This document shows, in pieces, positions 1 through 37,292 of a stretch of 64,000 nucleotides of DNA; position 1 is the stretch's first letter, and every line of letters begins with the position of its first letter. The stretch is from assembly GCF_947623445.1 (NCBI RefSeq), contig NC_135242.1, positions 9,486,001 to 9,550,000 of the forward strand. Reading direction: 5' to 3'. This DNA comes from Clavelina lepadiformis. Taxonomy: Eukaryota; Chordata; Ascidiacea; Aplousobranchia; Clavelinidae. The notes beneath the pieces are model-generated. The model saw only the letters and a program-made list of their open reading frames with translations, ran no database searches and was not told where the DNA came from. Both the position numbers and the translations under genes were made by a program.

Positions 1-3674
<3,674 letters not shown>

Positions 3675-14266: not shown

Positions 14267-14930
14267 GGTTCCACGACATATGGCCGCGGGAAAATGACCG
14301 CGAACAAACTCACCGGGGTCAACTGAACGTGACGTAAATTGACCGCGAACAAACTGACTGTGATGTAAATTGACCGCGAACAAACTAACCGGGAACAGAC
14401 TTACCGGAATGAAAATTGACCGGGAGGTAAATTGACCGTGGGAGTCCTGACGTACAGCTTCAATCTGACAATTTACTTAACTAAAGTGTCCATTGTTATT
14501 GCAATGAGTCCATTGTTACTACATGAGATAGGCTACAACACATTGTTTCATAATCTCATCAAACAACTCGTCTAGACCGGGAAAATGCATGTAACAATAG
14601 GAAATCTATGAATAAAGGTGAAAAACCCGTAGGGTCACCCTACACCCTACAAGGGGCCAAAAAACTCTACGAGTGGCAACCTTGACTGCAATACACATAC
14701 TAAATTGGATAGTGACTAGATAGCGACTAGATAGTGAATTAGAATTTTGACCTTTTGACGGCCAATTTGTCGCCGGTTAATTTGATCGCCGGCCAATTTA
14801 TCGACGGTTAATTTTATCGCCGGCCAGTTTACGTCACGGTTAATTTGATCGCCGGCCAATTTGTTGCCGGTCAGTTGTCCACAACCAGTTGTCGCCGGCG
14901 AGTTTGTTCACGGCCATATGTCGTGATCCC
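14267..14930. mobile_element. MULE-like non-autonomous element, family B copy 1
   Basis: Flanked by a perfect 9-bp duplication CTATAACTA (14258-14266 and 14931-14939), the size typical of Mutator-like elements. Ends are GGTTCCACGACATATGGCCG at the left and, read inward from the right, GGGATCACGACATATGGCCG. Behind each end lies an array of divergent units of about 17 bp, such as TTGACCGCGAACAAACT on the left and AATTTGATCGCCGGCC on the right, so each terminal repeat is built of tandem units. The centre (about 14450-14700) is unrelated AT-rich DNA with no transposase. It is the same family as 23460-23745. Confidence 0.85.
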
Positions 14931-14939
14931 CTATAACTA

Positions 14940-15779
14940 TACGGTAAAGCGTTGTAGACTCGTGATATTCTTTTGTATATTTTGTTAAACATACGAACTT
15001 GACTATTTTGTGGATTTTGTTTGCCATCTTGCATCTTTTAGCCAATGGGCTTTGACAGTTTTTCCTGTTCCTTCGAGAGTATTTTCGTTATTGTGCTATA
15101 CAGGGCTAATACCATCTACTTGGGACCGAAAATAGGGGGGATGACTGGAAACAAAATAGAATATTTCTAACAATATAAAACATCATATTAGACTATTAGA
15201 GCAATATCTTGATCGATAATGTCAAGCTGACGTGGGTTATAAAGCATTTACTTGTGACACATTCGCAGCATATCTTTCTTTTATGATATCACAAAATGTT
15301 TGCGGCAAAACACTGCATGTGCTATTTTAATAACCTACTGTATTATATCATCCGCCTGACAAAGAGTAGAGGACTATATGTTGCGTTTCTACAGGTTGGT
15401 GCAAACAACCGTTTCGCAAGTGAATTGAACAAACGAATGTGCGATTAGATTTTCTATTACTTGAAGACGAGTATGATATCCATATTCTGCACATCTGTGC
15501 CTAATATGACGTATAAAACGCTTTGTTGTGAATCCAGAATAAAACAAACTTTGATGAAGTGTATATGCAGTGTGGTGATTCAATAGATACCCTATAAAAC
15601 ACTAGATTGCTCTTCCTATTGTTGTCGACCAATCAAAAATGAAGCCAATTGAAGAGATTTGGCGACAACGGCAAGGGACCCAAACTGGGCTCTGAACACG
15701 ATTTTATAAGGCTTTTAAGCTGTTAAGTCCAACCTTAAATTGTGAGATTTCTTCATCAATTTTGTAATCTATATAAAAC
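14940..15779. other. Gene-poor stretch, no feature recognised
   Basis: AT-rich DNA with only short frames lacking homology. No repeat or RNA gene was recognised. Confidence 0.5.
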
Positions 15780-15941
15780 ATGGATAAAAGGGGAACTCAA
15801 TGCTGTGCTTACAGTTGCGGAAAAAGGAAAAAGAGAGAATAGCGCTACAGTAAGCGATAAGTTAATGGAAAGAAGTGCCAGTGAAGAGAGTTCGGATGAT
15901 GAGACAAGAAAGAAGATTTGCCATCCAAGAACCTTTCATGC
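15780..15941 (+). pseudogene. THAP-like zinc-finger first exon with a frame break
   Basis: From an ATG at 15780 the frame reads MDKRGTQCCAYSCGKRKK, which has the Cys-x3-Cys start of a THAP (C2CH) DNA-binding domain, then stops at a TAG. One reading-frame step away the sequence continues as a Ser/Glu-rich linker (SEESSDDETRKKICHPRTFH), ending at a strong donor GC|GTAAGTAT. RTFH just before the splice fits the FHxFP motif of THAP domains. The frame changes near two A-runs (GGAAAAAGGAAAAAG), so this is either a real lesion or a homopolymer sequencing error. No downstream THAP exon was found, so the locus may be decayed. Identification rests on motif spacing only. Confidence 0.35.
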
Positions 15942-18356
15942 GTAAGTATTTTTTTGCATAATAATGATTGATTACCTACAACTAATGTTTTTCTTGGTTT
16001 AACGTTAATACCGACACGGCGTTCGGTACCGTATGTAAACTGTAGCGTAGCCTACTGGCACTGACATAAAGTACTGTAACTGAAAGCCCTTTTCTCATTG
16101 CTTAAGGTGTTAAATATGCTATTTATGTCTATGTGTATACGGTCTATAGTCTAACTATATCTCTTATTCGACTACAGGTTAGTTGCTTAAAACTGAGTTG
16201 CAAAGAGCAATAGTGTAGTAGTACCGGCGGGTGTTTTTGTGCAACAGGAATTATTAATTAATCGTGTCTTTGCACCAGTCGTTCAATTTAATGAGCTGTA
16301 AGTTCTGACCATCTCATTAACATTGCAGCTGTTGTTCATTTGCATGGCGTTCAACCAATAACTTACCTCAGCTGAAAGTGCACCCGAACAATCTCTGTTT
16401 TATAGGATATCTATGGGTGAATCAGACATCACAAGTTTAGGATAGTGCACAATCAAACAATCACTTTTATAATATAGCCTACGGTACATGATCATATTTA
16501 TGTACTGGAAAAAGTAGTGTTGCACACAAAGTCTTATATTTTAGCATTGGAAACGGAAAACTTTTCGTCTTTTCTTTTATACAGTACACAGTAATTTCAC
16601 TACCTGCAATTTCCCGATACAGTCTTAGAAACAGACGTAGATTTCTCTCACCGCTTTTATCCATACCTTTTTTTGGAACAAATAATAAAATAAAGCACTT
16701 GGATATTTTTAGTACTTATACGCTACCTTAATGGGATTTTTGATTAAGAAATCTTTACAAAAAACAACCCAGAATTTCTGAAGATATAAAGGAATTACAG
16801 TAGTCTACACGCTTATATCTGGACTAGATACTAGAGATAAACTTATCCGAATATCGAATCAGTATTTCAATTAGGCTTATACTTGACTATCAAGCTATCC
16901 TGATGATACTATTATGCATAATTATTATATATGCCTGTCACCAAACTAATTTTGACCTCAACAAAATGGGTTCTAGTGCAGAAATGCACATTACACAAAC
17001 AAACAACGTCATGATGTAAACGGGCAAAGTGTTTATGTAGCTACGTAATAATCCTAACCTAATCTTAACCCTGAATAACCGATTTCAACCTTTGCGCAGC
17101 ATCGTTACTAACTGCGCTGTGATAATTAATCTATGTCTACTTTCAGTTAAATGGTCACCCACACTTCCTAACAGAAGTAACGCCTTTCTCTCGTGGAGGC
17201 TCGCAAAGTTTAGGCTTCATGCCAAATGTTGCCAATGCTTTTTGCTACATCAGCAAGCGTTCTCTTCGCGACGGGTTCGTCATAGTTTATTAAAGAGATT
17301 TTTGTCTTTGTCGATGTCACCTTCTACTTGGTTTTAATTAGCCCATGATCTCGTCTCGTTGGCTCGCTTGGTTGTTAGTTGGTCTTAGTGTTTTCCCAAT
17401 ATCACTTGTTTTCTTTGAAAAGTATGGCGTGTTGAAGAACAGAAACAAATATATTGCAATTACACTCTACGGAAATATGATACATTTATGCCATTATAAA
17501 CGATACCAATCAGTTAATTACCAAGTGGTTCCTTAAAGTTAAATTTCACACCAAGTTTAAAGTTTGCATGAAATCAGGTATCGTAATATTTGAGAACGAA
17601 TTGTGTGACATGAACAAATTGTTAGAACAAGATGAGAATTTACCATGTAAGTCATAGTGACCATTTCAACGTTGTAAAAGTTCGTCCTGTAATTAGCTAT
17701 GCTCCTCTGCTGACAAACGTTTTGTGACAATGACAAAACGGCCTTTAGGCTGCTTAAACGTTATCCCAATTGTGTGTTTTGGTTGTCGCGTTTATTCACG
17801 CAGCGAAAGATCTCCAATGCATGTTCACTAGTTACCGTAAAACCATATGCGCACGGCATGTTTATTTTACTAATCTTTCTTTTGCAAAATGGCATTACTA
17901 TTGCATTTGCATTTGGTGGCGTATGTTTAACATTTGCGCTAACACCATGCAAAGTTATCATGCGAAGTTTGCCATCAAGGGAAAAAGATGAACTTTTGTA
18001 CGCGTATCCATCATGTGTCCATTATTTGTTGGCAGTGGGCCCAGTTCGCAGGTCAATTATAATGCGAACGGAGAAATAGTATCATGAATAAGATAGCAAC
18101 CATTAACAATATAAACGTGGGGGAAAATACGTTTCGTCGATAGGTTTGTTTTGTCCGTTTTACCTTGCGTTTAATGATGCTGAAATTTGGCACCGATAAA
18201 AAAGCTTTATGTATAGTCTGTTTAATCTCACTGTACTCACATTACAAAAGTTAACTGACTCGCATGTGAAATCAGTGGTCTTCCTGGCAGGGACCTAGTT
18301 TGCTAGAAAACTTTCGGTGGAGACAAACTTCGTGTGATATGCATTGGAAGTCAGAG
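15942..18356. other. Gene-poor stretch, no gene recognised
   Basis: Contains several frames of 60-100 codons with no family resemblance and no consistent splice context, including hydrophobic frames near 17345 and 17774. No mobile-element ends were identified. Confidence 0.45.
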
Positions 18357-18840
18357 GTGAACAGTACCGAATTCCTGTACCGCGGTACTTTATCAGGACC
18401 GATACCGTGAGTAATTTCGGAAAAAAGTACCAAATCTCTGTTCCAAATTACTTTTTCCAGGAAATTTGAATCAGTCCCGGTACTTTTAAAGTGATTACTT
18501 CAAAGTTTTAACAGGTATGTTTTTCTAAAGTTCATTTTAAGTAAAACTTATTGCCAGGTTTTAGCGTTTGTTGTTCTTTTTTATTTTGCAAATGTCTAAT
18601 AAAATCGCAAGAAGTAAGTTAACATATATTTTGACCTGGAGTAACTTGTAACTGAGCCTTAATATAGGGGTAAAAAATGAACTTGTAGTAGGATCCGTTA
18701 TACAAAAAGTACCGACAAAGTACCGATTTACATTTTTGAAATAATGCCAACTATCGGTACCATCGGTACAATGTTTGCCAAATACGGGTACCGTTAGTCC
18801 GTTACCGACGGTACTTTCAAAGTCCTGACTACCCACCTAA
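18357..18840 (+). mobile_element. GTACC-rich MITE, copy 2 (approximate ends)
   Basis: Begins near CAGAGGTGAACAGTACCG and ends near GACTACCCACCT, with many GTACC/GGTACT motifs between (for example GTACCGCGGTACTT). Its right end matches the left part of the SRP54-intron copy at 145-560 in inverted orientation. No coding capacity. Ends are approximate. Confidence 0.5.
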
Positions 18841-19114
18841 GTTGATTTTTACAGAAGGCAGTTCCGATTATGGGATACAATCATAGTAAAACGGGTAGTT
18901 AGTTAAAGTAATAAAATTTAATATGAAATGAAACAAAATTGTCTATTAGACATTTGTACTACAGTGGTCATCGTTTATAAACCACCTAGGGACCGGAATT
19001 CTTTTACACTCAATGACCGTGTCCATTTATCTTATTTGTTCTTCTACTTTTAGGTCCTCTCTTATTTTAAAAGTTGGGGGCATTATCCTCCCTTTTTCGA
19101 ATGTGGCGGTCATG

Positions 19115-19700
19115 CAGAGGCGGATTAGCAAACTAAAACAGCCCGGGATTTTTACAAGTAGAGCGACCCAGGAAAGGCCCTGTAGAGCGCAATGTGGATC
19201 CGGAACAGAAAGTAAATTCGGTTTAAACGTTATAAAAATTAACGTAGTTTAAATAAAAAATTGATGAAATAAGAGCGTTTTTGACTTCATTTGTAGCCAA
19301 TTGACTACACATAAATATAAAATCAACAGGTTTTACAGGGAAACTTTCACAACTCAAATTTTAAAGTTTTTATTCTTTATACACTTCGAAATGATAATTT
19401 ATATGTAAACCCAAACACAATTTGAGGGGCCTTATCTTGCCCACATGGGCGCAACCAAATGTTCAGTTACAGCTAATAATATTATCGATAAAGGCACAAA
19501 CGTTCGTATTACTGGTACACTACCTTTTAAGTTTCGTGTTATTACTACATACTTCCTTTAAGGAATTAAGAGTAACAATGAATGTAATTTACTAATAATT
19601 CAGGCCCCATTAAAAGTCGTAGGCTCAAGCCAATTGGCCCGCGTGACACCTCTCATACACTGGCCTCCTCCCGAACTACCGGTGGGCTAATCCACCCCTG
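19115..19700. mobile_element. hAT-like MITE (CAGAGGCGGATTAGC ends)
   Basis: Terminal inverted repeats CAGAGGCGGATTAGC (left) and GCTAATCCACCCCTG (right; read inward CAGGGGTGGATTAGC), matching at 13 of 15 bases. Flanking octamers CGGTCATG and GAGACATG share only five bases, consistent with an old insertion. No transposase frame. Confidence 0.65.
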
Positions 19701-22700
19701 GAGACATGTCCCCCCTCCCGTCTTCCCTGATCAGAGGTCCTTGCTTCCTTTTGAATGAGTAGCATTATTATTTGCTTTTAGGGGGATTCCCTTTATGAAA
19801 CCTCATCCATGCAACAAGTTAATTTTGTCTATCTTTAACTATGTTATCTTTAACTCTCTTTAACCGACTATCTTTAACTATGGGCTGCGTGACCTACTTT
19901 CGGTGAATTAATCACTTTCAAATAGTGACAAATAATAATCAAATAGTGAGTGTCTTATCAAAAATGGTAAATAGGTGTTCTCTCAGAACAAAGCCTCTTA
20001 TAACAGGCCAGGCTCAGCACAAGGCGTCTTATAATTCAAGTGGCAAAATCATGTTGAAGAGCTTTTTGAAATAATGTTAAAAACTGTGACTTTCTATATA
20101 AAATTTGATAATATACAAATAAAAAAATAATGATGATGTTATACTATGGTCTAGTTTATAGTGTCTTATAGTACAATGTGGTATAATAGAATGGGAATCT
20201 GCACCAGACAATATTTTAAAACATTTAAATATATTACACAAAGAAATAGTAAAACTAATTACCTTATCTATAAAGATACCAAATTAAAAACTCTTCCATT
20301 CAAAGTGATATCCTAAATCTATCTATTACAGACAGGTAAATGCATAACTGCTATACCAATTCTCTTTCCCATTTATTTCCCAGATGTCGATGTTAAGAAA
20401 TTACAATGATGAGTGCACACTACTAATTGCTAAAACACTTTCTTTCTGTATAGGTTGTAACTTCCGAACTTTCATAGTTAAATGAGATGAAGTAACATTT
20501 TCAAACCTGTGGTCTTGTCACCATTAGCCACGTCCGCGAGTGCCCTTGTATGGAAAGTTTGCATATTAGCACAGGAATATTTACACCAAAAAAATTAGGG
20601 CCTATACTTTAGGATACCCACGCCAATATTAAAATTCTAATTATTTTCTGCCTCAATTAACTTCTATTTTGATAAATGAAGGCGATTGTAAGGCCGTTGG
20701 CTTCCCCCTGATTATCTGTGCCACTGTCAAGTTACAAAGTCTGTCAAAAGATGATCAACAAATGGAAATTTAACTGCACTTGCAATCTTTGTATGTGTGT
20801 TTCTTGTGACACAATTTTATGACGTCACCCCAGGAAGGCCAAAGCTGATATTTATGCCAATGCAATAACAATACTTGTTCCTTTGCAACAAAGGTCTCAT
20901 ACAGGCAAATGACCTGTCTTAGTCACCATGAAATTATGGGCTGAAGTTTCTTTGGATTTCATATTTTATTTTATTTCCATAATTTGAAAACAGAAAAAGA
21001 TAAATTGTATACGGTATTTGAAAGAAGTATGATCCCAGATAGTGAGATATCAAATGTAGATGTTTACACATGATTTATATTTTACTATCCAAATTTTCAC
21101 ACCTAAACCTTCCCTTATGCTCCTGTTTAGTATATTTATTTATCTACATTTTAACTCTTTATATGTCTGTGGACATTAAGTTGTGGTGCTGCACACACAA
21201 GATCCCATCAAAAAATGCCATAGTATCCAGACTAGGTTTATGCTTTTTCAACATTTGCTTTGCAACAAAGGACTAACTTACAATGTTCACATAAAGTATC
21301 TACCATTTATTTATTTTATTTACAGAATATTTTGTGAGAGATTACTTAAACTGTGTAAATTACTTAAACAGTCGTAATATATATAATTGGTATTTTTTTA
21401 CGATTTTAATGTTTTAATTTACATCAATTCTTGATTTTCATTTAGTTATTATAAATATTTTAGTAGACTATTTAATGCTACAAAACTGTTGCCAACAAAT
21501 CCAAGCGTCATGCAGCTTTTTAAAATTTGGAAGCAAAATGTAAAATATATAACCATACTGAAAAGATATGTTACAACCCTCCATGCATCTTCAGGTATGA
21601 TATGATATATAGTATGCCATTTGAATTTTTACATGCCTCGTATTTACAGGAGCAATAAAGCATGTTTTCTTAATCATATTATTTTTTTATCAGCCTAATT
21701 GTGATCAGTTGTAAAATATAGTAGCAAAATGCAGAAATGTTAACTGCAAACCAACTAAACCAAATGCTTAAATTAATAAATGTAGGTAATGCAGTAGAAT
21801 GTGCTTAATGTGACTGACCATGTTGGCGTTGGGATCTGATCATATTTTTTACTTTTTTAATCTTCCTTGGTTGTAACCAGAAAGGATCAACTCAGTTAGC
21901 AACAACATGATTAAAAAATCAAATTTACCATTTAATTCAAGTAACATTTGGTTAGTTTTGAGCAGAGCTGGTTACGAGCGTGCTCATTTTTCGCGAACGA
22001 TCGAAGTATCAATGCTATTCTGTCAAAATGCTGCACGCTCACATATTCTTATCTTTTACTTCTGCTTATTTGCATGGCGCAAAAGATGCTGTGATAGCGC
22101 TGTATAGTTGATAAATGAAAAATTTTTGACTGCTTTAGAACTAATTTTTGCCTGATGATGCTATAAGAAGGTAAAATAATGACCTGATTTTTTTGCCGTA
22201 GCTTAGGTAAGCTAAGTCGCTCTTTGCTGATTGGCCAAGTCAGTTATTGTTAGTCATATATGACATACGCTGCGTACTTCCTTCCTTCTATAAGCACTGC
22301 AAAAAAGTATCCTACCTTACAAAAGTAGCCCTGCGATGGAAAAACATGGTGATTAACTAATGCATCAAGTACATAATGCCAGAAAAATTATTTGAATAAA
22401 CGTTTTCAACGTAGATGATTCACTACTGCCTCAGTAGTGAATCACCACCAATGAGAATTGAATGGTGACACTTATGAAACCAAACAATCATGTCAAAATG
22501 CAACAACACAATGCTCCATTGCAAGAAAAAATACGAAGGATATTGAAAAAAGTGTTCTTTACACTTTAGTGTTTTTCCATTTGTTTTGCATTCACCTAAT
22601 TTCACTCTATATATATGTCACAAATAATTCGTAAGCACCACAATATCACTCACCCATTAGATTAATGCAACAGGAAAGTTGTAACGTAGATGCTTTTTAA

Positions 22701-23226
22701 GTCTAACATGTCAAAACAAAACATTAAAAAACACATGGAGAATAATTGCAAAAAACAGCTCATGTATATTCAAAATGACAATAAACTGTATAAGTCATTC
22801 ATATTGTCAGTAAAAATTCTCTATACTTCGCAGAAGTACTAAATTAACTTATAAGATAGGTATCATAGTTATAATACGTAAACTAATCGTAATTATTTAG
22901 GGATTTTTCTATGCTTTTTGCAATTTATGCATTCTCTATGCATTTTTATAATTTGAAAAAATAGAACTATAATTTATTTTCCAAAATAGTGCCATTGTTT
23001 TTACGGTAACTAATTTTTCTTTATTGTTATCATTCAAAGTGTGTGATAAACAGTAATAATTACATGCAGATTACATTACTAATTACATTATCATACATAT
23101 GTAAAGTTAATTGTTTCACAAGTTTTACTTTTTAGAGTCCTCTTTTTATGTAAAGACTAATTTATGCAAACCTTATGATAGTTACGCTCTGCTTATGTTG
23201 TTTTTTAAAGATATATGTATATTACT
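19701..23226. other. Gene-poor stretch upstream of MTPAP
   Basis: The missing first exon(s) and promoter of MTPAP should lie here or inside the hAT-bearing stretch that follows, but I could not identify them. Otherwise the stretch is AT-rich DNA with short unsupported frames, TATCTTTAAC-type simple repeats near 19840 and one perfect short hairpin at 22417. Confidence 0.4.
22417..22443. repeat. Perfect 12-bp-stem hairpin
   Basis: GATTCACTACTG, then CCT, then CAGTAGTGAATC: a perfect 12-bp stem with a 3-base loop. It has no following T-run and no known role. It may be a transposon footprint or remnant. Confidence 0.5.
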
Positions 23227-23234
23227 CTCTAGAC

Positions 23235-23940
23235 CAGGGGTGTCAAACTCAATCGCACCAAGGGCCAAAACGCAAAACTTATTTAACGCCGCGGGCCGTA
23301 AGGATAAAAATTGATTGAACGTTTCCTGACACCAATACATGAATTGGAACAGCCAGCGAAACAACACTAAATTTTTGATTATTCTTATCTTACATCATTA
23401 TGTTTCATTCATCTCCTTGCAAAAGCATTAAAGAATTAACAGACAATAAAGAAAAAAGCGGGATCACGTCAATTGACCGTGAACAAATTCACCGGCGACA
23501 ATTGGTCGTGGTCAACTGACCGGCAACAAATTGGCCGGCGACACAAATCAAACGCTACGCATTTTATTTTTATTTTTTACGCAAATTAGCATTGTTGTTT
23601 ATTCAAATTATATGATTTAAGTGATAATATGATTTAAGGTCAGTTGGTTCTAGATAAATTTACGTCACGGTCAGTTGTCCCCCGGTCAGTTGTCCTCGGT
23701 GAGTTTGTTCGCGGTCAATTTCCCACGGTTAATTGTCGTGGAACCGAAAAAAGCAGCCCAGACTACAAGCGTTGGAATAAATCGATTTATAATCTTGTTT
23801 CTTGCTTGCAAAAAGTAAGTTGTACTGTACAATGATCTCGCGGGCCGGAAATAGTTCAATGTATAAAATAACATTGCGGGCCAAGTTTTATTGTGAAGCG
23901 GGCCGGATGTGGCCCGCGGGCCGGGAGTTTGACACGTATG
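23235..23940. mobile_element. hAT-type MITE interrupted by a MULE-like element
   Basis: Left end CAGGGGTGTCAAACTC and right end GAGTTTGACACGTATG, with GCGGGCC-rich subterminal sequence (GGCCCGCGGGCCGGGAG). It is flanked by a perfect 8-bp duplication CTCTAGAC (23227-23234 and 23941-23948). Removing the nested element at 23460-23745 leaves about 420 bp, a normal MITE size. It lies just upstream of the first recognised MTPAP exon. Confidence 0.87.
23460..23745. mobile_element. MULE-like element, family B copy 2, nested in a hAT MITE
   Basis: Ends GGGATCACGTCAATTGACCG and, read inward from the right, GGTTCCACGACAATTAACCG. Subterminal units such as TTGACCGTGAACAAATTCAC and GGTCAGTTGTCC repeat. 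A perfect 9-bp duplication GAAAAAAGC lies at 23451-23459 and 23746-23754. End sequences and unit sequences match the copy at 14267-14930. At 286 bp it is mostly terminal array, with no coding capacity. It inserted into an already integrated hAT element, so it is the younger of the two. Confidence 0.87.
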
Positions 23941-24041
23941 CTCTAGACACTTTATATTGTACAACCTTAAAAATACAACTAAAATTTCAATCTGAAATTA
24001 CTGTAATGATATCACACTTATTTCTGCTTTATATCAATCAG

Positions 24042-27000: not shown

Positions 27001-30000
27001 GTTTCTCTGCAGTGTCATCAGACAGATATCTAATGTTTGGCAGGTTTCAAAATATCTGGTGTCCAGTTTCAATTTGGCTAGGTTTCTTTGTAACTTCTCA
27101 TTACAAATACTTCAGCAACAGTGATGTAATGGTAATCTTTGATGTATTTACCAGCTTTCATTTGAAAGAGCTGTTGAAATCATAGTGAACCACTTGCATA
27201 TTGATAAAGCCATAATCATCCTGCCTTTTGGTATTGAAATCTTGTGAAAGATGATATCTCATAAATGTAAAGCACAAATATATCCTACTAGCTTAAAATC
27301 CGAACTGTATTTGTAATAATTACAAACATTTTAACAATTATTGTAACCGGTTTCAATCTCGCAACCATCCTGATTTGAAAACCTCGTAATGTATTTACAT
27401 GTTGCACTTGGAAGTTTTCCTCCAAAATAAGTTGTCCCGCTCACCTGGACACAAAACTCAGTGCAAATATTGAATCACCAGATGAAGTTTAAGGTTTTAC
27501 TCCTATGAGCATCTTTATTGCAAAGATTTATAACTTGCCTACGTGAAGTTAGAGCTGGGCATTTTTTAACCAATTGCTGCCATATAGTCGCTAATTTTGC
27601 CAGGTCTTAAAATGTTACGTCCAGAAAAAACTGCTATATATTCTTAAGAATCTTGGTTAAATTTCTGTTAATGGCCAGGTATTTTTCCAGCCTTAGTAGT
27701 AAGCACATTTAATTTTCCTTCTCACGATTACCTTGATTCAAAAAAGTTACCAGATGTTGATGTATTACATTTTGAACTTCAATTTTTACCTCATCTACAA
27801 ACTGAGCGTTTAATCATCAGATAAAGTTACGAAGACTTTTGCTAGCGTCCCTAAAAAAACCTCAACCTTGGACATTGGAGCACAGATTGATTATCAATTT
27901 CAGAACCATTTCACAGATGTATTATGTCCATGCAAAGCCACTTAAGACAGTGTGGCTTAAGCGACTGGGAAAACACACCGGCAGACAAATGGACAGACAG
28001 ACACACTTGCCCTTTGCTTATATGAATATCAATTAACTGACATTTGTAGTGTGACATTGAATAGAACTGTTTTAAAAATGGCTTTAGGGTATGAAAAATG
28101 GTTGAGTCAAAAATTATATGTTGAATAATAGTGTTTTGGGTTTACTAATTGTGTATTTCATTTCAAATTTTTAGCTGCTGAAATTGGAAAGCATTTCCCT
28201 GGTGTGTCGGGTGTTACAAATCATGATGCTGTAGTTCCTATTCTGAAGCTACATTTTGCACCATTCTCTAGTGATGTTGATATTTCTTTAGAGAACAAGT
28301 CAGTATGGCACAAATTGCTCTGTTTTGCAAAATTTGTATTAATATCACTGGGGCATGTAGCAGCTTTACACAAAGAACTAAACTGAAGTGTAATGAAAAC
28401 TATGAGGGCCAGTTGACTAGACAATCTTTGATTATAGGTACAGTATATGTATTCATATATGCACAATGTATAAATCCTAAGAAGAATCTTATTGTAGTGT
28501 AAAAGTTTTCAAAATTTTATATCTTGTTAGTTATACTACCTATATATCTCATTACCTACATCACGTTTAACATCTTGTATCTTTAGATTAATTTGCAATG
28601 GATGTTAATTTTACTAATGTTGACATTATGTACAAGGCCATTAGTGACGTAAACAATCGTAGAACATAATCTAGTCCACAATCCGTCTGCGGCATAGATC
28701 ACATTTGGTATCGTATATATATATATATATATACATATAGCCCACATAGTTCTCAGTTCATTAAAATAAAAAAAGGTTAAAATCTTTTGCCTGAAGACTG
28801 TTGCAAAATATAAGCTACACATTACAGTTTATGCGGGCCATCCTGTCAGTTTGGTGTGACGGACACATTCTAGCCAGATCACAACTCACTTTACAGTTTA
28901 GTTGATAATAGCTGTTGAGTTTTTGGAAGTGGTTTGGTGTAACAGTGGCATAAACGAAACATTTGCTACTACAATGTAGCTGATGTATTTCTGTTATACT
29001 TCATTAGTACGTACTTAAACGTGTTAGTTTTCATTTACTTGTGCCCAACTTTTGATTCGTCATTTTATAAATAAGTACTAGTAGCTTATAAAAATTATAG
29101 CAGAGTTGCATTTTGCTATTCCCATAAGCATCACATGGCAGTACTTTTTTGTTTTAGGAGGTTTTATTTTAGTTTTTAGTATTTTATCAACATACTTCAT
29201 AACGCCAGAGATAGAATTTTTGGGGTCACCATCGACTAATTACCACAGGCTTGCTTTGCTTGCAGAACAAAACCCTAGCACTTTTATGCTTAACATGTTG
29301 AACTTAGGTACTATTAGAAAATGCATAACTAAAAATGTAGTAATGATATTTAATGGCTATCTGAAGTTTGAATATTTGTTGCTAAAATTTTACAATGGAA
29401 GTGTGCATTTTAAGATGAGTTTATTTCAGAGTGGGGATGCAAACTGGTTGGATTTTCAATATGTATGTAAGGATTGATAAAAGAGTCGCTCCGTTTCTTT
29501 TTTTACTACGTCAGTGGACTAAGCATAATGGACTTTCACAACATGGGGGCACTTTGTACTATGGTTTGACTCCATTCATGGTTACATGTCTAGGTTTGTT
29601 TTATCTCATGCGTGTGCAACCAGCAGTCATTCCTCCCATGATAAATATGCTTACACCAAGAGCAAGTAAGTATTAATGGGAAGTTGCAGCTTATAATCTA
29701 TTCTAATTAAACATATGTCGACATGTTGGACAGTTATATCTGCTTGTAGATTGAATTTCTAGAAACACATAGATATAGCATTATACCCGTTTGGTCCAGA
29801 AGGAAAGCGCTGGCTCAATTGCAGAACGACTGTAATACGTATTTATTTAATACCTTACTGAATCATGTCTTTCTCAGCTCCAGATGATTTGATATTGGGA
29901 AAATTTCATACAAAAATAAACAACAACGTTTTAAACTTCAAATCTGAAAACTACAGCAGCGTGGAGGAACTTTTCCGGAACTGTCTGGAGTATTACCGCC

Positions 30001-30578
30001 TTCTTGAGTTCAACGAGTTTGAATTGTGTTTAGCCACAGTAAGTAAACACTAATCTTTTCCATAGTTGTTTGAAACTGACTTACCTTTTACAACAACCTT
30101 TACATACAGACAAAATGAAGTAGTTGTGATGTAAATTAAAACAAACTCTTTCAACTGTATTCGCGGTTTCAAATTAAATGAAAATGCATTGCAGGGCACT
30201 GCCAAGAATGTTATGCAGTCAGTATTTCATGCCTCTGCCGACCTTCACATCAAGATTCCGCTATCAAACATGAATGTCGGTAAAAATTGCTCTTACCAAT
30301 CTTTGAAAAAGTTTCAGAAAAGTGCAGAAACTTTAATTAGGTGAAGTATAATGCATGCTAAAACGAGTATGCACTATTAGTATACACTATTATCATATAT
30401 ATTTTTTTCTGGTTAAGGTGTTTTCAGTGTAAAACAGTTGTAAAAAATTAGCAGCTTAGTTTATGTTTTTGTCTCGTACGTTGACTTTTTTTTCTTTTTT
30501 AGGCGATTCGAAAGCCGAAAACGACATAAACATAATGAATGGGGTGTTTTAGCAGCGGTTACACTCGAAAAATCTTAG
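24042..30578 (+). CDS. MTPAP: Mitochondrial poly(A) RNA polymerase (5' exon not found)
   Basis: Non-canonical poly(A) polymerase that adds A-tails to mitochondrial mRNAs in the matrix. Nine exons join in frame: 24042-24256, 24358-24558, 24738-24867, 25320-25514, 28175-28298, 29430-29665, 29878-30038, 30195-30340 and 30503-30578, about 494 codons. The first two give the N-terminal RNA-recognition-like domain (MFLHVDVDPATDQQC, NYFLVEFSTAEGV). Exon 4 carries the nucleotidyltransferase motif FGTVMMGLGTEQSDIDLSL with the Asp-x-Asp pair. Exon 5 supplies SSDVDISLENK (third Asp region). Exon 6 gives RIDKRVAPFLFLLRQW and LTPFMVTCLGLFYL of the central domain. The last exons give KFQKSAETLIR and EWGVLAAVTL, matching the family C terminus. 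The first exon starts in phase 1, so an upstream exon with the targeting peptide is missing. Intron 4 is unusually long (2.66 kb). Confidence 0.9.
25515..28174 (+). other. Long MTPAP intron, no second gene recognised
   Basis: A 2.66-kb intron; the others in this gene are about 0.1-1.1 kb. A hAT-like left end (CATAGGTTTTCAATTTATGG followed by GTCACGACCC) starts near 25848, but no matching right end or duplication was found. The excess length may be a decayed insertion. Frames within show no family resemblance. Confidence 0.45.
28714..28733. repeat. (TA)n simple repeat
   Basis: A run of about ten TA dinucleotides within an MTPAP intron. Confidence 0.8.
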
Positions 30579-30632
30579 CTACATTGATGGTTTGTCTGGA
30601 AAAACCAACCCTGCCAGTTGATGCCACTTAGC

Positions 30633-30638
30633 AATAAA
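30633..30638 (+). promoter_or_regulatory. MTPAP poly(A) signal AATAAA
   Basis: AATAAA 55 bases after the MTPAP stop codon and only ten bases before the start of the mariner insertion. The cleavage site would therefore fall at or inside the transposon. Confidence 0.6.
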
Positions 30639-30647
30639 TCGATGTTA

Positions 30648-31611
30648 CAGGGTGGCACAAAAAAACGTTCATCAATAAAAATCGAATACCTTCCAAAATT
30701 TTATTAGATTAACACAAAAATTCAGCTACATTAGGTTAAGTCTATGTAGTAGACATCTCCAAAGTTTCAAGTCTGTACCAGATGAACTCTTTGTTTAACT
30801 CGCGCTCAAAAATGTGCTCTAAATGAGCTTCACGGTGCTGCAAGCACATTTGGATCCGGCGGGCAAAGTTCTCGATGAACCTCCCACATTCTTCCCTTGG
30901 GATCGCTTTTTATTGCTATTGTGATTGCTGCCTTCAGATCAGGGATAGTCTGGGGGTTGTTGCCATACACCCTGTCCTATGTATCCCGACAGATAAAAAT
31001 CTGGGGCGTTCAAGTCCGGTGAATGTGACCTGCGGCTGATCAGTCGGTCAGGGAAACGCTACTGTAGCCATGCCAATGATTCGTTTGAGGTGTGGGGGTG
31101 GCACCATCCTGCTGGAACCACTAGACGTCCATGACGACCCCTCTTCGTCGACCAAGTGCTGTCCGGAATTTGCCAAACACCTGAACAAAACGCTCGCTGT
31201 TGATTGTCACAGACCGCTCGTTTTCGTCCTCGAACCAGAATGGTCCAATGATGCCATATTTGGAGATGGCGACGCATTCAGTGCACTTGGCAGAGTGTAA
31301 TGGCCTTTGCAGACAGTACTCGGGGTGTGTGCTACCCCAGAAGATGTTGTTCATAGAGTTCACATGACCTGGCAGCAGAAAATGTACCTCATCCGAAAAC
31401 CAGACATGCCGCGTGGATAGAACTCAGCCGAAAATAGGCGTCAACTATAAATGTCTTTTATTCAGTAGTTCATTGCATCTCAAAGTAGAAATTTTCTAAA
31501 CTTATAGAACATTATTTAGAACTTGGTAAATCTGAAAAATTAAAAGAATTGATTAATTATTTCAAAAGTTATTCAAGTTTAGGTGATGAACGCTTTGTTT
31601 GTGTCACCCTG
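30648..31611 (-). mobile_element. Tc1/mariner-type element with decayed transposase
   Basis: Inverted ends CAGGGTGGCACAAAAAAACG and GTTTGTGTCACCCTG with TA at both sides (30646-30647, 31612-31613). A minus-strand interior encodes a degraded mariner transposase catalytic region. One frame reads FWGSTHPEYCLQRPLH and GIIGPFWFEDEN; another continues QWFQQDGATPTPQTN, so at least one frameshift separates the parts, and the N-terminal half is mostly missing. At 964 bp it is shorter than a complete element (about 1.3 kb). Confidence 0.88.
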
Positions 31612-33734
31612 TATTTTAAATGTGTATTTTTATGTTTGTGACCCCTTTATAAAAAAATTTAATCTCGGCTCACTTGCATTCTCACCTCAAGTTTTTGCGA
31701 TCTGCTTCTCAGCAACAGTTTTGATAGGAACCAAAGTATATTGCAAAATGCATAGGGCTGCAGTAAATTATGTAAGTTTTTTGAAGTGCTTTGTTTTCTG
31801 CTTGATGAGAATAACCCGATGAAGTGTATATAAAGTCGGTCTTTGGCCAGTCTGACTGCGTTGGGTCCATCGTTGCTTAGCACTAGGGCTGGGAAAGTTT
31901 ATCTGACTAATAAGCGCTAACGCCTAAAAACTCTTAGTAACTAAACAATTTGTTAGCCATTAGGTGAAAACGTACATGTAACATAGAATTTAGAGGAAAA
32001 TTTTTGGTAATCCATTGACAGGTGGAAATGTGCTGTTCTGTTAATCATTTTAAGGCTTGAACAGCTTGTTTCTTTGATCAATTACGTAGCCTAGGATGAC
32101 ATATGTTGCTAGTAAAAACTTTTCATCACGCTTCTTGAGAATATACAGTACTTTTACCTGCATGTAACGGCTACAGAAAATCGGTTAAATTCCAAGCTCT
32201 ATTTAGCACAAAAATAAGAGTTTAGCTACTGTTTTGCGCAAATCTCAGTAGGCCTATTTCTTTTAGAAAGAGAATGTCTATGGCTAAGCCATAGCTAAAT
32301 TAAAAAACTTGCCTCTGGAATGTTTCTAAAATTCTGGCACAAAACATTTTCAGTGCTAACTACTAACAGCATCCTTAACTGGGGACGTAGCCTACTTGAC
32401 ATTATTACCTCTAAAAATATTCCCCTGGCAAAACAAAGCTTTGGAACCCAATGGGAGCTGATTTGCAAAGAGTTGATATTTGGTTTACGTTAAGATTAAT
32501 TATTATACATTGAGTTATTTAAAATCATCAATGAGCACGCCATCAGTTCTCGTATTGGGCCACTCGCTTGCTTGGGTCGGCTCTGGAAGCACGCTATGTA
32601 CGAGATTCCAATAAAACATCGAAACGCTTCTTCACTATATGTAACTTATTCTTCACCCATGATGCATGAAGGCCACAACAAACAAATGTGATTGAATGAA
32701 GTTTACTTTTGGCACATTGAGTCATGTAGCTTTACTGCTTTAGCTATAGGAAGGTATTTCTTTTTCGAAAAGTCGTGTATTCCAGCAAACTATTTGGCAA
32801 CCTATTTAACCATGTTCATTTCATGGAGTATTTGCGTCAGCTTTCTCGTTTGGTACAACGCTCGAACATTCCAGCATCCCATACTTGTGATAATGTTTGA
32901 ATGAACTTGTTATTGCTGTTGTGTTTGTCGCTATGCTAGTTGCCCATAGTCTAGTGTAGTTTCTTCTCATTGTTGTTATAACTTATTGTTTATTATTTTT
33001 TGTTTTGGTTGGGTACTAAACGCTTTCTGGATTTGGTGGCCACGCTTACCTTTTATATGTCGTTATAGCATCACTGCAGACCACAGTTACCATTTTGCAC
33101 GTTTTAAGTCTTAGGACTTTGCCGCTTTTTCCTGCTCGTCGATTGTTTGTGAGCGCACTCTTCTTGTTTTAGCATACTATTACAAGATTAGCAACCATAC
33201 TTTTCACTTCCCACAGTTAATTTTGAAAAAATAAACAATACCTGAAGTTTTTTCATTTACAGAAATCTGACATTCTGGAATGCAGTTCTTGTTTACAACA
33301 TAATCATGATATCACTGCAAATACCCGATGATTTCCTGTGTGAAAAAACGTTGCCTTGCGTCAGTACAACAAAACTTGTATCGGAGAAAAATGAGAAGAT
33401 TGGTAAGGGGCTTTTTCGTATAAAGAACAACGCGGTGTTTAACCTGGGAGGACGTTGACGACTGAATAAACTACTTAAGCTAGCGTCTAAGCACACTATA
33501 GGCTTTATGGTTTAGAAGTGAAATCGAACACGTCGACAACAAATTTTTTCCATATAGTCTATATTGAAAAGCTAAACTTTTTTAGAAACAAAAGCATAAA
33601 AACAACATAGCATATTGTTAAGCTAACCGAGTAACTTTTTTACAGCCTGTCTTGTCGCTTTTACAAGGTGTGTTGTGTAGCAGAAAATTTCTTTTAATAT
33701 TGAATGTTAGTTCGAAGATTTTACGAGTAAAACC
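31612..33734. other. Gene-poor stretch between mariner and caveolin cluster
   Basis: No gene, RNA or clear transposon ends recognised; AT-rich with short frames only. The promoter of the first caveolin copy should lie at its right end. Confidence 0.5.
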
Positions 33735-34375
33735 ATGACCCAGGTATCCCTTGAAAATAAATCCAAGGGGATTCTAGATCTTGAGCTTCGAGATCCCACT
33801 AATATGAACAAACGTGTCAAGGTAAGTAACTATAACTGGCATTGACGTTTTCACGGAAAAGTAATTAAACAATTAGGGTTAAGAAAGAAATGAATTTTTT
33901 TGAAAGACGTTTAAAAGATTAATTAATTATTATTGCTGTATAGATTTGGTTTGAAGATTCTTTTACGAAACCAGACGGTACTCACAGCCTTGACCCTTGA
34001 TGGTGTATGGTCATGTAGTTATAAAACCTTCGAGTTCACCAAGAAGTGCTGCTATATCTTCCTTTCTATTTTGTGTGGCGGACCCTTTGCCTTTGGCTTG
34101 TACTTCGCTTGGCAAAGTTGTTTCCATATATGGTAGGCAAACATTTATATTTAAATGACAATACGCAATTATTGGTATAATCCATCTTTTTGTATCTTAT
34201 GCAGGTGTTTGAGTCCTTACTTGAAGTCATTCTTTATTGACCTTGGTTGCTGTGCTACATTCTAGAATCTAGAAGACCTTGGTTCAATGCTACCGCGATC
34301 CGGTGAATGAATCGTGTGGGAAGATATTTGGAAATATTAAAATTTCATCACAAATACGAAGTTGTATTGGAAGTC
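33735..34375 (+). pseudogene. Caveolin copy 1, broken
   Basis: Three exons parallel to the intact caveolin at 39635: 33735-33821 (MTQVSLENKS..DLELRDP), 33944-34135 (WFEDSFTKPDGTHS, then after a shift LDGVWSCSYKTFEF..FHIW) and 34206-34375 ([16 protein letters not shown]). Splice sites are intact, but the frame is not. Exon 2 has a 7-bp tandem duplication (CCTTGACCCTTGATGG) that shifts the frame. Exon 3 has another 7-bp duplication (TTCTAGAATCTAGAAG), a TAG where the intact copy has TGG, and a further base gain near the end that loses the normal stop. The protein would end within the scaffolding region. The preserved splice sites and strong similarity suggest inactivation was not ancient. An alternative is a sequencing or haplotype artefact, which several independent lesions make unlikely. 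Confidence 0.85.
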
Positions 34376-34861
34376 CACACCAATAGAATTATGGTTAAGA
34401 ATTTATTCAGGTATATACTTTTATTGAACGTCAAATGTAAGTCAGTTCTTATTGCCTGTGCAAGTAGCCTACATATACGTGATAGCTTTCAGTACATGAA
34501 GTTTTTATTTATTTTTTCAATTAGAGACAATACATACCAATGTAAACGAGCGAGTTTTGTATTATTATTGGTTTTTCTTGATGGTGCCCTAGAAAATGGT
34601 GATAATGACAATGACGGTAACCAATCTTTCGATTTCTGTTAAAAACAGTTCTTTCCAACACGGGTCCCGATTTTAATTACATCTGGAATAATCCAACTCC
34701 CATCATACCCTATATAATAAACATTCTATGACTAAACCATTTTCTTGAGAAGTTCTTCAACTTTATTTAATACAGTACAAATGCCCAAACTGAAAAAGCT
34801 ATAACAGAAATAAAAACATTTGTTATACTGTTCTCCAGCGCCATTCTCTATTGGTGTACCG

Positions 34862-35052
34862 ACACTTAATCACGCGACACATAATCACGCGACATTTAAT
34901 CACCGACACATAATCACTAGGACATTTAATCACGCGACACATAATCACTAGGACATTTAATCACGCGACACATAATCACTAGGACATTTAATCACGCGAC
35001 TTGGATACGTAATCACGCGACATTTAATCACGCGACACATAATCACTTGGAT
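34862..35052 (+). repeat. Left terminal tandem array of family A MULE
   Basis: About twelve 15-16 bp units, mostly of the forms ACATTTAATCACGCG and ACACATAATCACTAGG, partly alternating. One irregular insert (ACTTGGATACGTAATCACGCG region) breaks the pattern. Confidence 0.88.
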
Positions 35053-35105
35053 GCGACTGCCAAAGGCTTCCTTGGTCTTTCTTTTAGAACTCCCCGACAA
35101 TTGTT

Positions 35106-35768
35106 TTGAATCCGTTTGAGACTGCCGCAGTAAGTGCTTTCCGCACAGCATTTCCTACAGCAAATGTTAGGAGTTGTTATTTTCACCTAACGCAAAGCGT
35201 CCTGCGCAAAGTGAATGAAATTGGCATGAAGTGTGACTACGAGTCTGATGACGAATTAAGAACAGCTGTTCGGTGTTTACCAGCCTTAGCCATGGTCCCT
35301 TCCTCTGACGTAGTCGAGTCATTTCTGATCTTAGCTGATAGCATGCCCGATCACGAGAAGATGCCTGAGCTGCTTTCGTATTTCGAACACACATATATCA
35401 GAGGCAGACGACGTCCGGGACGTGGTGAACATTACGGCTCAGCCATCTTTCCAATCGAAAGTTGGAATCATTACGAAGCCGGGGCAGGTTGCATTGCAAG
35501 AACCACAAATGCAGTCGAAGGTTGGCATTTTGGTCTCCAAGTGCTTTTTCAATGCCACCACCCGACAATGTGGACTTTCATACGGGGAATTGAAAAAGAC
35601 ATTCAAATGCAACGTGCAACGTTTCTGCAAGGAATTGCTGGTACTCAACCTTCTATTCCAATACGGTACAAGGCACTGAAACTGCGCGTGCAAAACATAG
35701 TTGACCGTTATCTGTCAAGCGAAATTTTAGTCTATCTTCGTGCAGTTGCTTACATTTCCCATGCATAA
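35106..35768 (+). pseudogene. MULE transposase, C-terminal fragment
   Basis: Open for 220 codons but without an ATG at its start. It shows FETAAVSAFRTAFPTANVRS followed by CYFHLTQSVLRKVNE (the MULE D..FP..C.FH..Q..RK block) and TNAVEGWHFGLQ (catalytic Glu with the WH pair). The end, RYLSSEILVYLRAVAYISHA, resembles the YLRxIAxxI tail of animal MULEs. The first catalytic Asp region is absent, so it cannot be active alone. Probably a truncated remnant carried by the element. Confidence 0.85.
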
Positions 35769-35810
35769 CATTGCTGTAAATTGTAAATGTAAAAAAATAT
35801 TGTAAATGTG

Positions 35811-35975
35811 TGATTAAATGTCGCGTGATTAAATGTCCTAGTGATTATGTGTCGCGTGATTAAATGTCCTAGTGATTATGTGTCGCGTGATTAAATGTCG
35901 CGTGATTAAATGTCCTAGTGATTATGTGTCGGTGATTATGTGTCGCGTGATTAAGTGTCGCGTGATTAACTGTCA
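35811..35975 (-). repeat. Right terminal tandem array of family A MULE
   Basis: About ten units, the inverse of the left array (CGCGTGATTAAATGT, CCTAGTGATTATGTGT). The order of unit types is not a simple mirror of the left array, so the arrays have changed length independently. Confidence 0.88.
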
Positions 35976-36587
35976 CCAAACCTTCTCTATTTCCGCCATT
36001 ACAGGCCCTTATAGCTCTATAGCTTGCATTTCTAGACGGGAATCGGAAAAATCTATAGAAAGGGCTCACATATACTAAGCGTCGAAAATACTGTTTATAG
36101 ACAAAAATTGTAATTACATAAGCACACAACACAACAGCCAAAGCATTTGAATGCAATTAAGAACGAAATAAGTTCAATAAGGCATAAAAACTTGAATTTT
36201 TTTTGAACCAAAAACAAGAGTACGGGTACCGTACTAAAATTAACGGATAATTATAATTAATTATAAATTCAATATTTAGAAAACTTCTCCTTCCGCATGC
36301 TATTAGTCCAGTATGACTTCAGATTGATCTTTCAACTACAAATTAAAAATAAAACGCAAATTTCTATTACTGTTGATTGATGTTAGAGGCTCAAAATTAT
36401 CCTGAAGGGGCTCTAAATTTTCAGGCCCTATGCTATAGCTCTATAGCAAGTGTGTGGTAAATCTAGAAATTCTGCACTTTAAAGAAAACGTACGTCACCA
36501 ACTCGACCGAAAAGCACTATTTAATAAGAGTAAACTAGTTTATGTTGAAATTCAACACTGAGTTACCTTAGCGAGAGATCAAAGCTG

Positions 36588-37292
36588 CTGCGATCCGGTG
36601 AATGAATCATATCTGGAAAGATACTTGAAAATGGTAGTTGATCAACTGAGTGACACTTCATTTGAGTGACAGCTCATTTGAGTGACACATTCTTTTAACG
36701 TTCATTTGAGTGACAAATAATTCATGCTCAACTGAGTGACAGTTCATTTGAGTGACACATTGGTGAGTACTGTTCAAACTACAGTAATGGTTGAAAAATG
36801 CATCAGCATGCAGCATCATAGAGTTTCCCAAGAACTCTTTCGCATTGAATTTGGTGCATCGACACCATTGCGCCGATCGCGTATGACAAGGCAAAAAGAA
36901 GCCCGATTTGGAAATTTGTTTTCCCAGCAAGAAGACCTTCCACAGGAAGTATTCCTCCGCCGAATTGCGCGTAATTTGAAGATCGGACCAACTGCGGAAC
37001 TATCAGAATTGAACGAGATGGTTGAGGATTCTTAGTTGTTTTTTGTTGATAGTACTCTAAACTTTGTCTTGTGTGTGTTGTCATCTGTGCACTTACTAAT
37101 TAACAGCAACTGCAACTTAAACAACAAATGTCAATGTGTCACTCAAATGAATTAAACAGCACTTATCAATGTGTCACTCAAATGAACTATAATTATGTCA
37201 CTCAAATGAACTGTCACTCAAATGAACTGTCACTCAGATGATATACAACCCTTGAAAATATCAAATTTCACCACAAATACAAAGTAGTTTAG
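36588..37292 (+). pseudogene. Caveolin exon-3 fragment split by a transposon
   Basis: Only the end of a caveolin last exon is present: GCGATCCGGTGAATGAATC at 36590-36608 is identical to caveolin copy 1 over that stretch. It continues to 36632 and resumes at 37260 with ATCAAATTTCACCACAAAT and an in-frame stop KVV*. The 618-bp family C MULE sits between the halves. A small indel also disturbs the frame. It is closer to copy 1 than to the intact gene, so it likely came from a local duplication of copy 1. Confidence 0.75.
36633..37250 (+). mobile_element. MULE-like element, family C, with transposase tail
   Basis: A perfect 9-bp duplication CTTGAAAAT (36624-36632 and 37251-37259). Ends GGTAGTTGATCAACTGAGTG and, read inward from the right, GGTTGTATATCATCTGAGTG. 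Subterminal arrays of a 15-bp unit TTCATTTGAGTGACA lie on both sides, inverted. The centre has a short frame, FRIEFGASTPLRRSRM..QEVFLRRIARNLKIG, whose end resembles the C-terminal YLRxIAxNI of MULE transposases. It inserted into a caveolin exon fragment. Confidence 0.88.

Follow-up and report, generated by a model that had tools for sequence, protein, structure and literature searches.

Transposons whose ends are rows of short repeats have been described in several lineages. Muta1 to Muta14, Mutator-like elements (MULEs) of Aedes aegypti, share the plan of the elements described below: a terminal motif and, inward of it, subterminal tandem repeats (PMC5225508). Among the 12 Muta families with long terminal inverted repeats (TIRs), 10 carry subterminal tandem repeats of 9-15 bp, and Muta1 is called a type2 Foldback element; its nine 12-bp repeats are separated by 3-4-bp spacers and thus have a pitch of 15-16 bp, and Muta5 has nine repeats of 15 bp. 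According to the same source, Muta families make target site duplications (TSDs) of 8 or 9 bp and have many non-autonomous derivatives, FLYWCH domains occur in 13 of the 14, and the transposases of Muta1 and Muta5 have 504 and 554 residues. Muta1 excises and reinserts in yeast, with 8- or 9-bp duplications (PMC5225508). The Phantom group, to which Muta belongs, is described as making 8-10-bp duplications and as having FLYWCH fingers, SWIM fingers or none (PMC6446971).

The Tm1 Mutator/Foldback elements of root-knot nematodes (Meloidogyne) likewise combine 9-bp TSDs, composite TIRs of one to nine units of ~14 bp, FLYWCH and MULE domains and miniature copies, but differ in that the usual unit is 14 bp, that the outer 7-bp motifs are asymmetric, that the inner motif is GA-rich and that the elements are low-copy and senescent (PMC3169594). 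Galileo has similar Foldback-like long TIRs, with tandem repeats that hold further transposase-binding sites; specificity, in the proposal of its authors, comes from having many short sites. Its THAP DNA-binding domain and P-superfamily transposase differ, so it is an analogue of mechanism rather than a relative (PMC3688188). Drosophila FB4 and Tetris also have long TIRs, with TSDs of 9-10 bp and 8-10 bp, respectively, and the TIR tandem repeats of Tetris can seed satellite arrays; compared by description, Tetris differs in its repeats of ~220 bp and has no known autonomous copy (PMC8277862, PMC4079207). Sea urchin is also among the foldback hosts (PMC4079207). The end design, which a preliminary description of the DNA analysed here could match to no earlier account, is therefore already published, for Aedes (PMC5225508) and Meloidogyne (PMC3169594).

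Four elements in a 64-kb window

The window, a stretch of 64,000 nucleotides of the Clavelina lepadiformis genome (C3:9486001-9550000), holds four elements of this design:

14267..14930, plus strand: family A element A1, 664 bp, non-autonomous; TSD CTATAACTA on both sides
23460..23745, minus strand: family A element A2, a 286-bp miniature copy in the orientation opposite to A1; TSD GAAAAAAGC
34853..35982, plus strand: family B element, 1130 bp; TSD TTCTCTATT
36633..37250, plus strand: family C element, 618 bp; TSD CTTGAAAAT

These boundaries are those of the preliminary description, and they are borne out by an exact 9-bp target duplication at all four elements, by GG at the start of all eight ends and by an array that adjoins the GG at each end. 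A1 and A2 have their ends in common and are one family; therefore, the window contains three families in four elements. Each element has at least 40 matching places in the 209-Mb genome, and copy counts are lower bounds because only the best 40 candidates were scored per search. Near-identical copies elsewhere in the genome, together with TSDs, were found for these elements, and on such sequence signs of mobility we take them to be cut-and-paste transposons, each end a row of short repeated sites and one end the mirror image of the other.

Terminal arrays

The inverted arms are themselves built of direct tandem units, as in Foldback-type ends:

14277..14440, plus strand: A1 left array, 11 units of 14-16 bp (unit positions 11..163 of the element; TRF)
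14757..14920, minus strand: A1 right array, 10 units found, inverted (unit scan; TRF)
34861..35046, plus strand: B left array, 12 units, pitch mostly 15 or 16 bp (TRF and unit scan)
35810..35974, minus strand: B right array, 11 units, inverted (TRF and unit scan)
36643..36756, plus strand: C left array, 6 units, spacings 16, 16, 28, 26 and 16
37138..37240, minus strand: C right array, 5 units, inverted, spacings 16, 16, 24 and 35

TRF listed inverted arrays in A1, B and C and none in the smallest element, A2 (23460-23745), whose units come from a scan with the family A profile in which the cut-off was as low as 5 bits. By unit-profile scan, left and right ends carry 11 and 10 units in A1, 5 and 6 in A2, 12 and 11 in B, and 6 and 5 in C. 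The layout of inverted arrays of 15-17-bp units proposed earlier is common to the elements, with modal spacings of 15 or 16 bp, but does not extend to C throughout: its units are 16 bp apart, yet gaps of 24-36 bp occur in places and long gaps recur among C copies. Regular spacing is therefore no requirement. Unit numbers also differ among copies, ranging from 5 to 14 on the left and 2 to 12 on the right in B, and from 4 to 6 and 1 to 7, respectively, in C; the shortest right ends are a B end with two units (L032, without an exact TSD) and a C end with one (L066, with a 9-bp TSD).

Transposases of six families

As the preliminary description had it, two of the elements carry pieces of MULE transposase:

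35091..35765, plus strand: B transposase piece, residues 304-528 of the 528-residue frame L069 (C-terminal 225), 96% identity, E 2e-146
36811..37047, plus strand: C transposase tail, residues 430-509 of the 509-residue frame L071, 85% identity, E 5e-36

A1 and A2 gave no transposase piece at E 1e-3. A genome search with PF10551 (MULE) returned 141 matches, 14 of them in 519-codon open frames of the family D type. Frames translated for six families have 473 (A, L070), 528 (B, L069), 509 (C, L071), 497 (D, L072), 468 (E, L073) and 437 (F, L097) residues, lengths that refer to the stretch translated as a single open frame. Compared by description, these single open frames of 437-528 codons differ from Muta1 with its two predicted exons and palindromic terminal motif (PMC5225508).

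Both FLYWCH and MULE domains score above Pfam cut-offs in all five frames scanned (A-E); the open frame of F starts inside the FLYWCH domain. A THAP domain, as in the P superfamily of Galileo, is absent from the same five frames. The FLYWCH domain has a solved relative, 2rpr (E 7.5e-4). Transposase identity from frame to frame is 24-38% across the six families (a B relative, L096, left out). A DFE motif and a later E align in all six frames, and the first D of a DGTF motif is G in the C frame; these columns (the DGTF D, DFE and the later E) are presumably the DDE catalytic triad. An N-terminal FLYWCH finger with a MULE domain marks Phantom (PMC3169594), and the A-E frames fit, although FLYWCH is not exclusive, since Phantom members may have it, SWIM or neither and some other MULE groups have it too (PMC6446971). 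With these domains and TSDs within 8-11 bp, the assignment of the elements to the MULEs stands.

As candidates for the full transposases that the preliminary description had proposed to look for, two-domain frames lie between matching arrays in A (L070), B (L069), D (L072) and E (L073). The C frame L071 has a C array on one side and a D array on the other, likely reflecting insertion of a D element inside a C element, because a left C array lies on the same strand 651 bases past the end of the L071 locus (C9:8860451-8860583). The D array at this locus, together with G at the first catalytic D position, limits C as an intact source. Among further frames, the B relative L096 has arrays on both sides, the E relative L098 has an array on one side, and L074 is a D cluster; L075, an 885-codon frame with a MULE match of 38.5 bits (over the cut-off), has no such arrays in 4.5 kb.

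Frame L097 has a left F array, and no right F array was found there; F was confirmed as a family through paired arrays elsewhere. A search with the F array gave 127 matches (best 40 candidates listed), which merge into 55 arrays of 129 to 1963 bp. Among the matches listed, 38 of the 55 form 19 inward-facing pairs and 2 form one outward-facing pair; for 17, no partner facing inward lies within 4 kb. Three F arrays were sampled at both sides: two, from pairs, have GG ends and 9-bp duplications, and the third has a GG end at one side only. This end design is thus present in at least six transposase lineages within a single genome, and the trio of the preliminary description holds for the window alone.

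Two clusters of MULE-domain matches were also seen. Five matches in C9:2577932-2612116 stand in direct order, 8493-8496 bases apart, as if a larger unit with a MULE fragment had been tandemly amplified. Six matches in C2:11879229-11919433, in 399-codon frames of one orientation over ~40 kb, appear to be family D, judging by scores equal to that of the L074 frame.

Target duplications at other insertions

From 40 scored places each, we fetched 8 loci for A1, 30 for B and 30 for C, each set including the window copy, and 20 for A2 (L001-L068 and L076-L095). Both ends were found at 8/8, 25/30 and 26/30 loci for A1, B and C (failing in five B and four C), and at these an exact duplication of 8-10 bp flanks 8/8, 24/25 and 25/26, respectively. 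All eight A1 copies have 9 bp, the window copy counted, as do all 19 A2 copies scored; the twentieth lacks the exact end letters used for scoring. B copies divide into 12 at 8 bp, 11 at 9 bp, one at 10 bp and one with none, and C copies into 9 at 8 bp, 16 at 9 bp and one with none.

Duplications recur genome-wide at A, B and C copies (27/27, 24/25 and 25/26), and the perfect 9-bp duplication first proposed for the design is true of the four window elements and of family A (27/27), whereas B and C at large mix 8 and 9 bp. Since A makes 9 bp only, against 8 or 9 bp in B and C, cut stagger can be compared between relatives. Sea urchin TU elements resemble those described here in their long inverted repeats, whose outer domain is made of ~15-bp tandem units, and differ in their 8-bp duplications. 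When flanks were swapped between copies as a control, identical 8- or 9-mers appeared in 4 of 3422 ordered pairs, which we read as two duplicated pairs of C loci with shared flanks (L041/L042 and L066/L067). Chance is ruled out for the TSDs because exact duplications flank nearly all copies with both ends. One D element read by eye has the 9-bp duplication TAGTTAAAG, with one D end being CG instead of GG, and one E element read by eye has the 8-bp duplication CAATGATT. The duplications of A-F fall within the 8-11 bp given for MULEs (PMC6446971).

A shared pitch with mostly unrelated units

Taking one representative per family, 111 unit spacings comprise 9 of 14 bp, 49 of 15 bp, 44 of 16 bp, 4 of 17 bp and 5 longer ones (21-35 bp), and the modal spacing is 15 or 16 bp in all six families (a tie in A). 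Because copies within one array are not independent, the evidence for a pitch is the agreement between families. The units themselves are mostly unalike. Those of A, B and C are mutually dissimilar, as the preliminary description had claimed, with 122 (A-B), 60 (A-C) and 55 (B-C) of 300 shuffles as good; among all pairs of unit profiles, B-D alone rises above shuffles (3/300 as good), the 14 other pairs giving 30-286/300. The same description had suggested that units and transposases co-evolve, and this was not upheld. Transposase identity is 38% for B-F, 37% for D-E and 31% for B-D, and FLYWCH identity is 44% over 41 columns for D-F, 43% for D-E and 32% for B-D; unit likeness does not track either, because B-D is the closest pair in neither.

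Three further regularities did not hold up. A common unit core, GAC(nn)TT, failed in that pairwise profiles gave only B-D above shuffles. The 3-mer GAC occurs, on one and the same strand, in the unit consensus of each of the six families, and some 3-mer is shared in 454 of 20000 shuffles of the six, or 1252 of 20000 with D left out; the GAC core is a lead only, because the idea came after looking at the data. A 31-bp dimer (three helical turns) is not general, despite TRF periods of 31 bp in A, B and D: units two apart are only slightly more alike than neighbours in A (0.71 versus 0.65) and B (0.84 versus 0.78), C, D, E and F show no clear excess, and the greatest likeness in E (0.70) is between units three apart. 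Nor does the first unit lie at a constant distance from the end: by eye, the first GAC is at base 9 in B and D and at ~20 in C and E.

Outside the elements, 47 TRF rows in the window include two with a period of 15 or 16 (1.9 and 2.5 copies), and rows with at least four copies have periods of 2, 6, 9, 11 and 81. The 81-bp array (45913-46577) lies in a 468-codon open stretch on the minus strand (45714-47120) and corresponds to about eight 27-residue protein repeats, VDGKHVSQSTVFSTSSPPSGELIHNKP-like.

Tentatively, and well short of thinking it probable, we suggest that Phantom-group ends obey a conserved geometric rule, a pitch of 15-16 bp or roughly one and a half turns of the helix: fingers and sites would have diverged mostly beyond recognition, and the packing distance of transposase subunits would not. 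If so, the six families, Muta1 (12 + 3-4 bp) and Muta5 (15 bp) would be parallel readouts of one synaptic complex. The literature searched, mostly without subscription papers and without the original Phantom paper, yielded no statement of a pitch conserved among families whose units are unrelated. The shared pitch is the point that merits bench work.

What the arrays may do

We consider it probable that the elements are non-autonomous Mutator-like transposons of a Phantom-like kind (FLYWCH plus MULE/DDE), with ends of the Foldback type. The transposase of a full-length relative would use its FLYWCH zinc finger to bind the 15-16-bp repeat units, pair the two element ends and cut at the terminal GG, and the element would be inserted through a staggered cut of 8 or 9 bp (9 bp in 27/27 family A copies). 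By analogy with Galileo, repeated transposase-binding sites, which the preliminary description had suggested, are the likeliest function of the arrays and the best mechanism we can offer for them. Each unit may be a FLYWCH binding site, many weak sites may give specificity and avidity, and the shared pitch may reflect protein packing on DNA. Retention of 5 and 6 units in the 286-bp A2 copy counts in favor of such a platform; the loose pitch of C, the uncoupling of units from transposase and the few units at some ends count against it, as do the wide lengths of F arrays, some of which could be slippage products.

Whether Foldback-type arrays are binding platforms or products of slippage is a question on which this panel of families bears. 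That slippage during replication and unequal exchange within long inverted repeats produced the arrays as neutral side products, with the outermost unit alone mattering for transposition, strikes us as unlikely, even though it would suit the variable unit numbers of B and C copies, the 129-1963-bp range of F arrays and the nearly equal spacing series at the left and right ends of single B, D or E elements. Slippage alone does not predict one modal spacing of 15 or 16 bp in six of six families with mostly unrelated units, which counts for the binding platform; outside the elements, no TRF row of at least four copies has a period of 15 or 16, and 286-bp A2 copies retain several units at each end. 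With long frames in several of its at least six same-plan families, the panel also lends itself to following how a zinc-finger target site and its spacing evolve.

We find it very hard to believe that the arrays, instead of binding protein, act chiefly as promoters or as signals of a hairpin or chromatin kind (foldback DNA or double-stranded RNA). One strand of A2 folds much better than shuffles (z -5.5, 0/200 as good), and long MULE TIRs have been tied to promoters and siRNA (PMC6446971); folding is nonetheless common to any long inverted repeat, and requires neither direct repeats within the arms nor a shared pitch.

That the arrays are ordinary satellite DNA that chances to flank mobile elements has next to no credibility, for all that the F arrays include one of 1963 bp and one of 1429 bp that lacks a partner among the matches listed, given that arrays stop at GG termini with TSDs (which already contradicts the idea for the four window elements) and that F arrays face inward in pairs far more often than outward (38/55 versus 2/55). 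Evidence on stray arrays, which the preliminary description had named as a sign against it, comes from the window scan and the F search, other searches ranking full-length matches first: in the window outside the four elements, scans with the six unit profiles turned up three isolated matches without any cluster, and 17/55 F arrays stood without an inward-facing partner among the matches listed. Two long F-type arrays, C2:8115211-8117173 (1963 bp, ~120 units) and C9:14465978-14467406 (1429 bp, ~90 units, with a GG end on one side), are possibly a step toward satellite DNA, as for Tetris.
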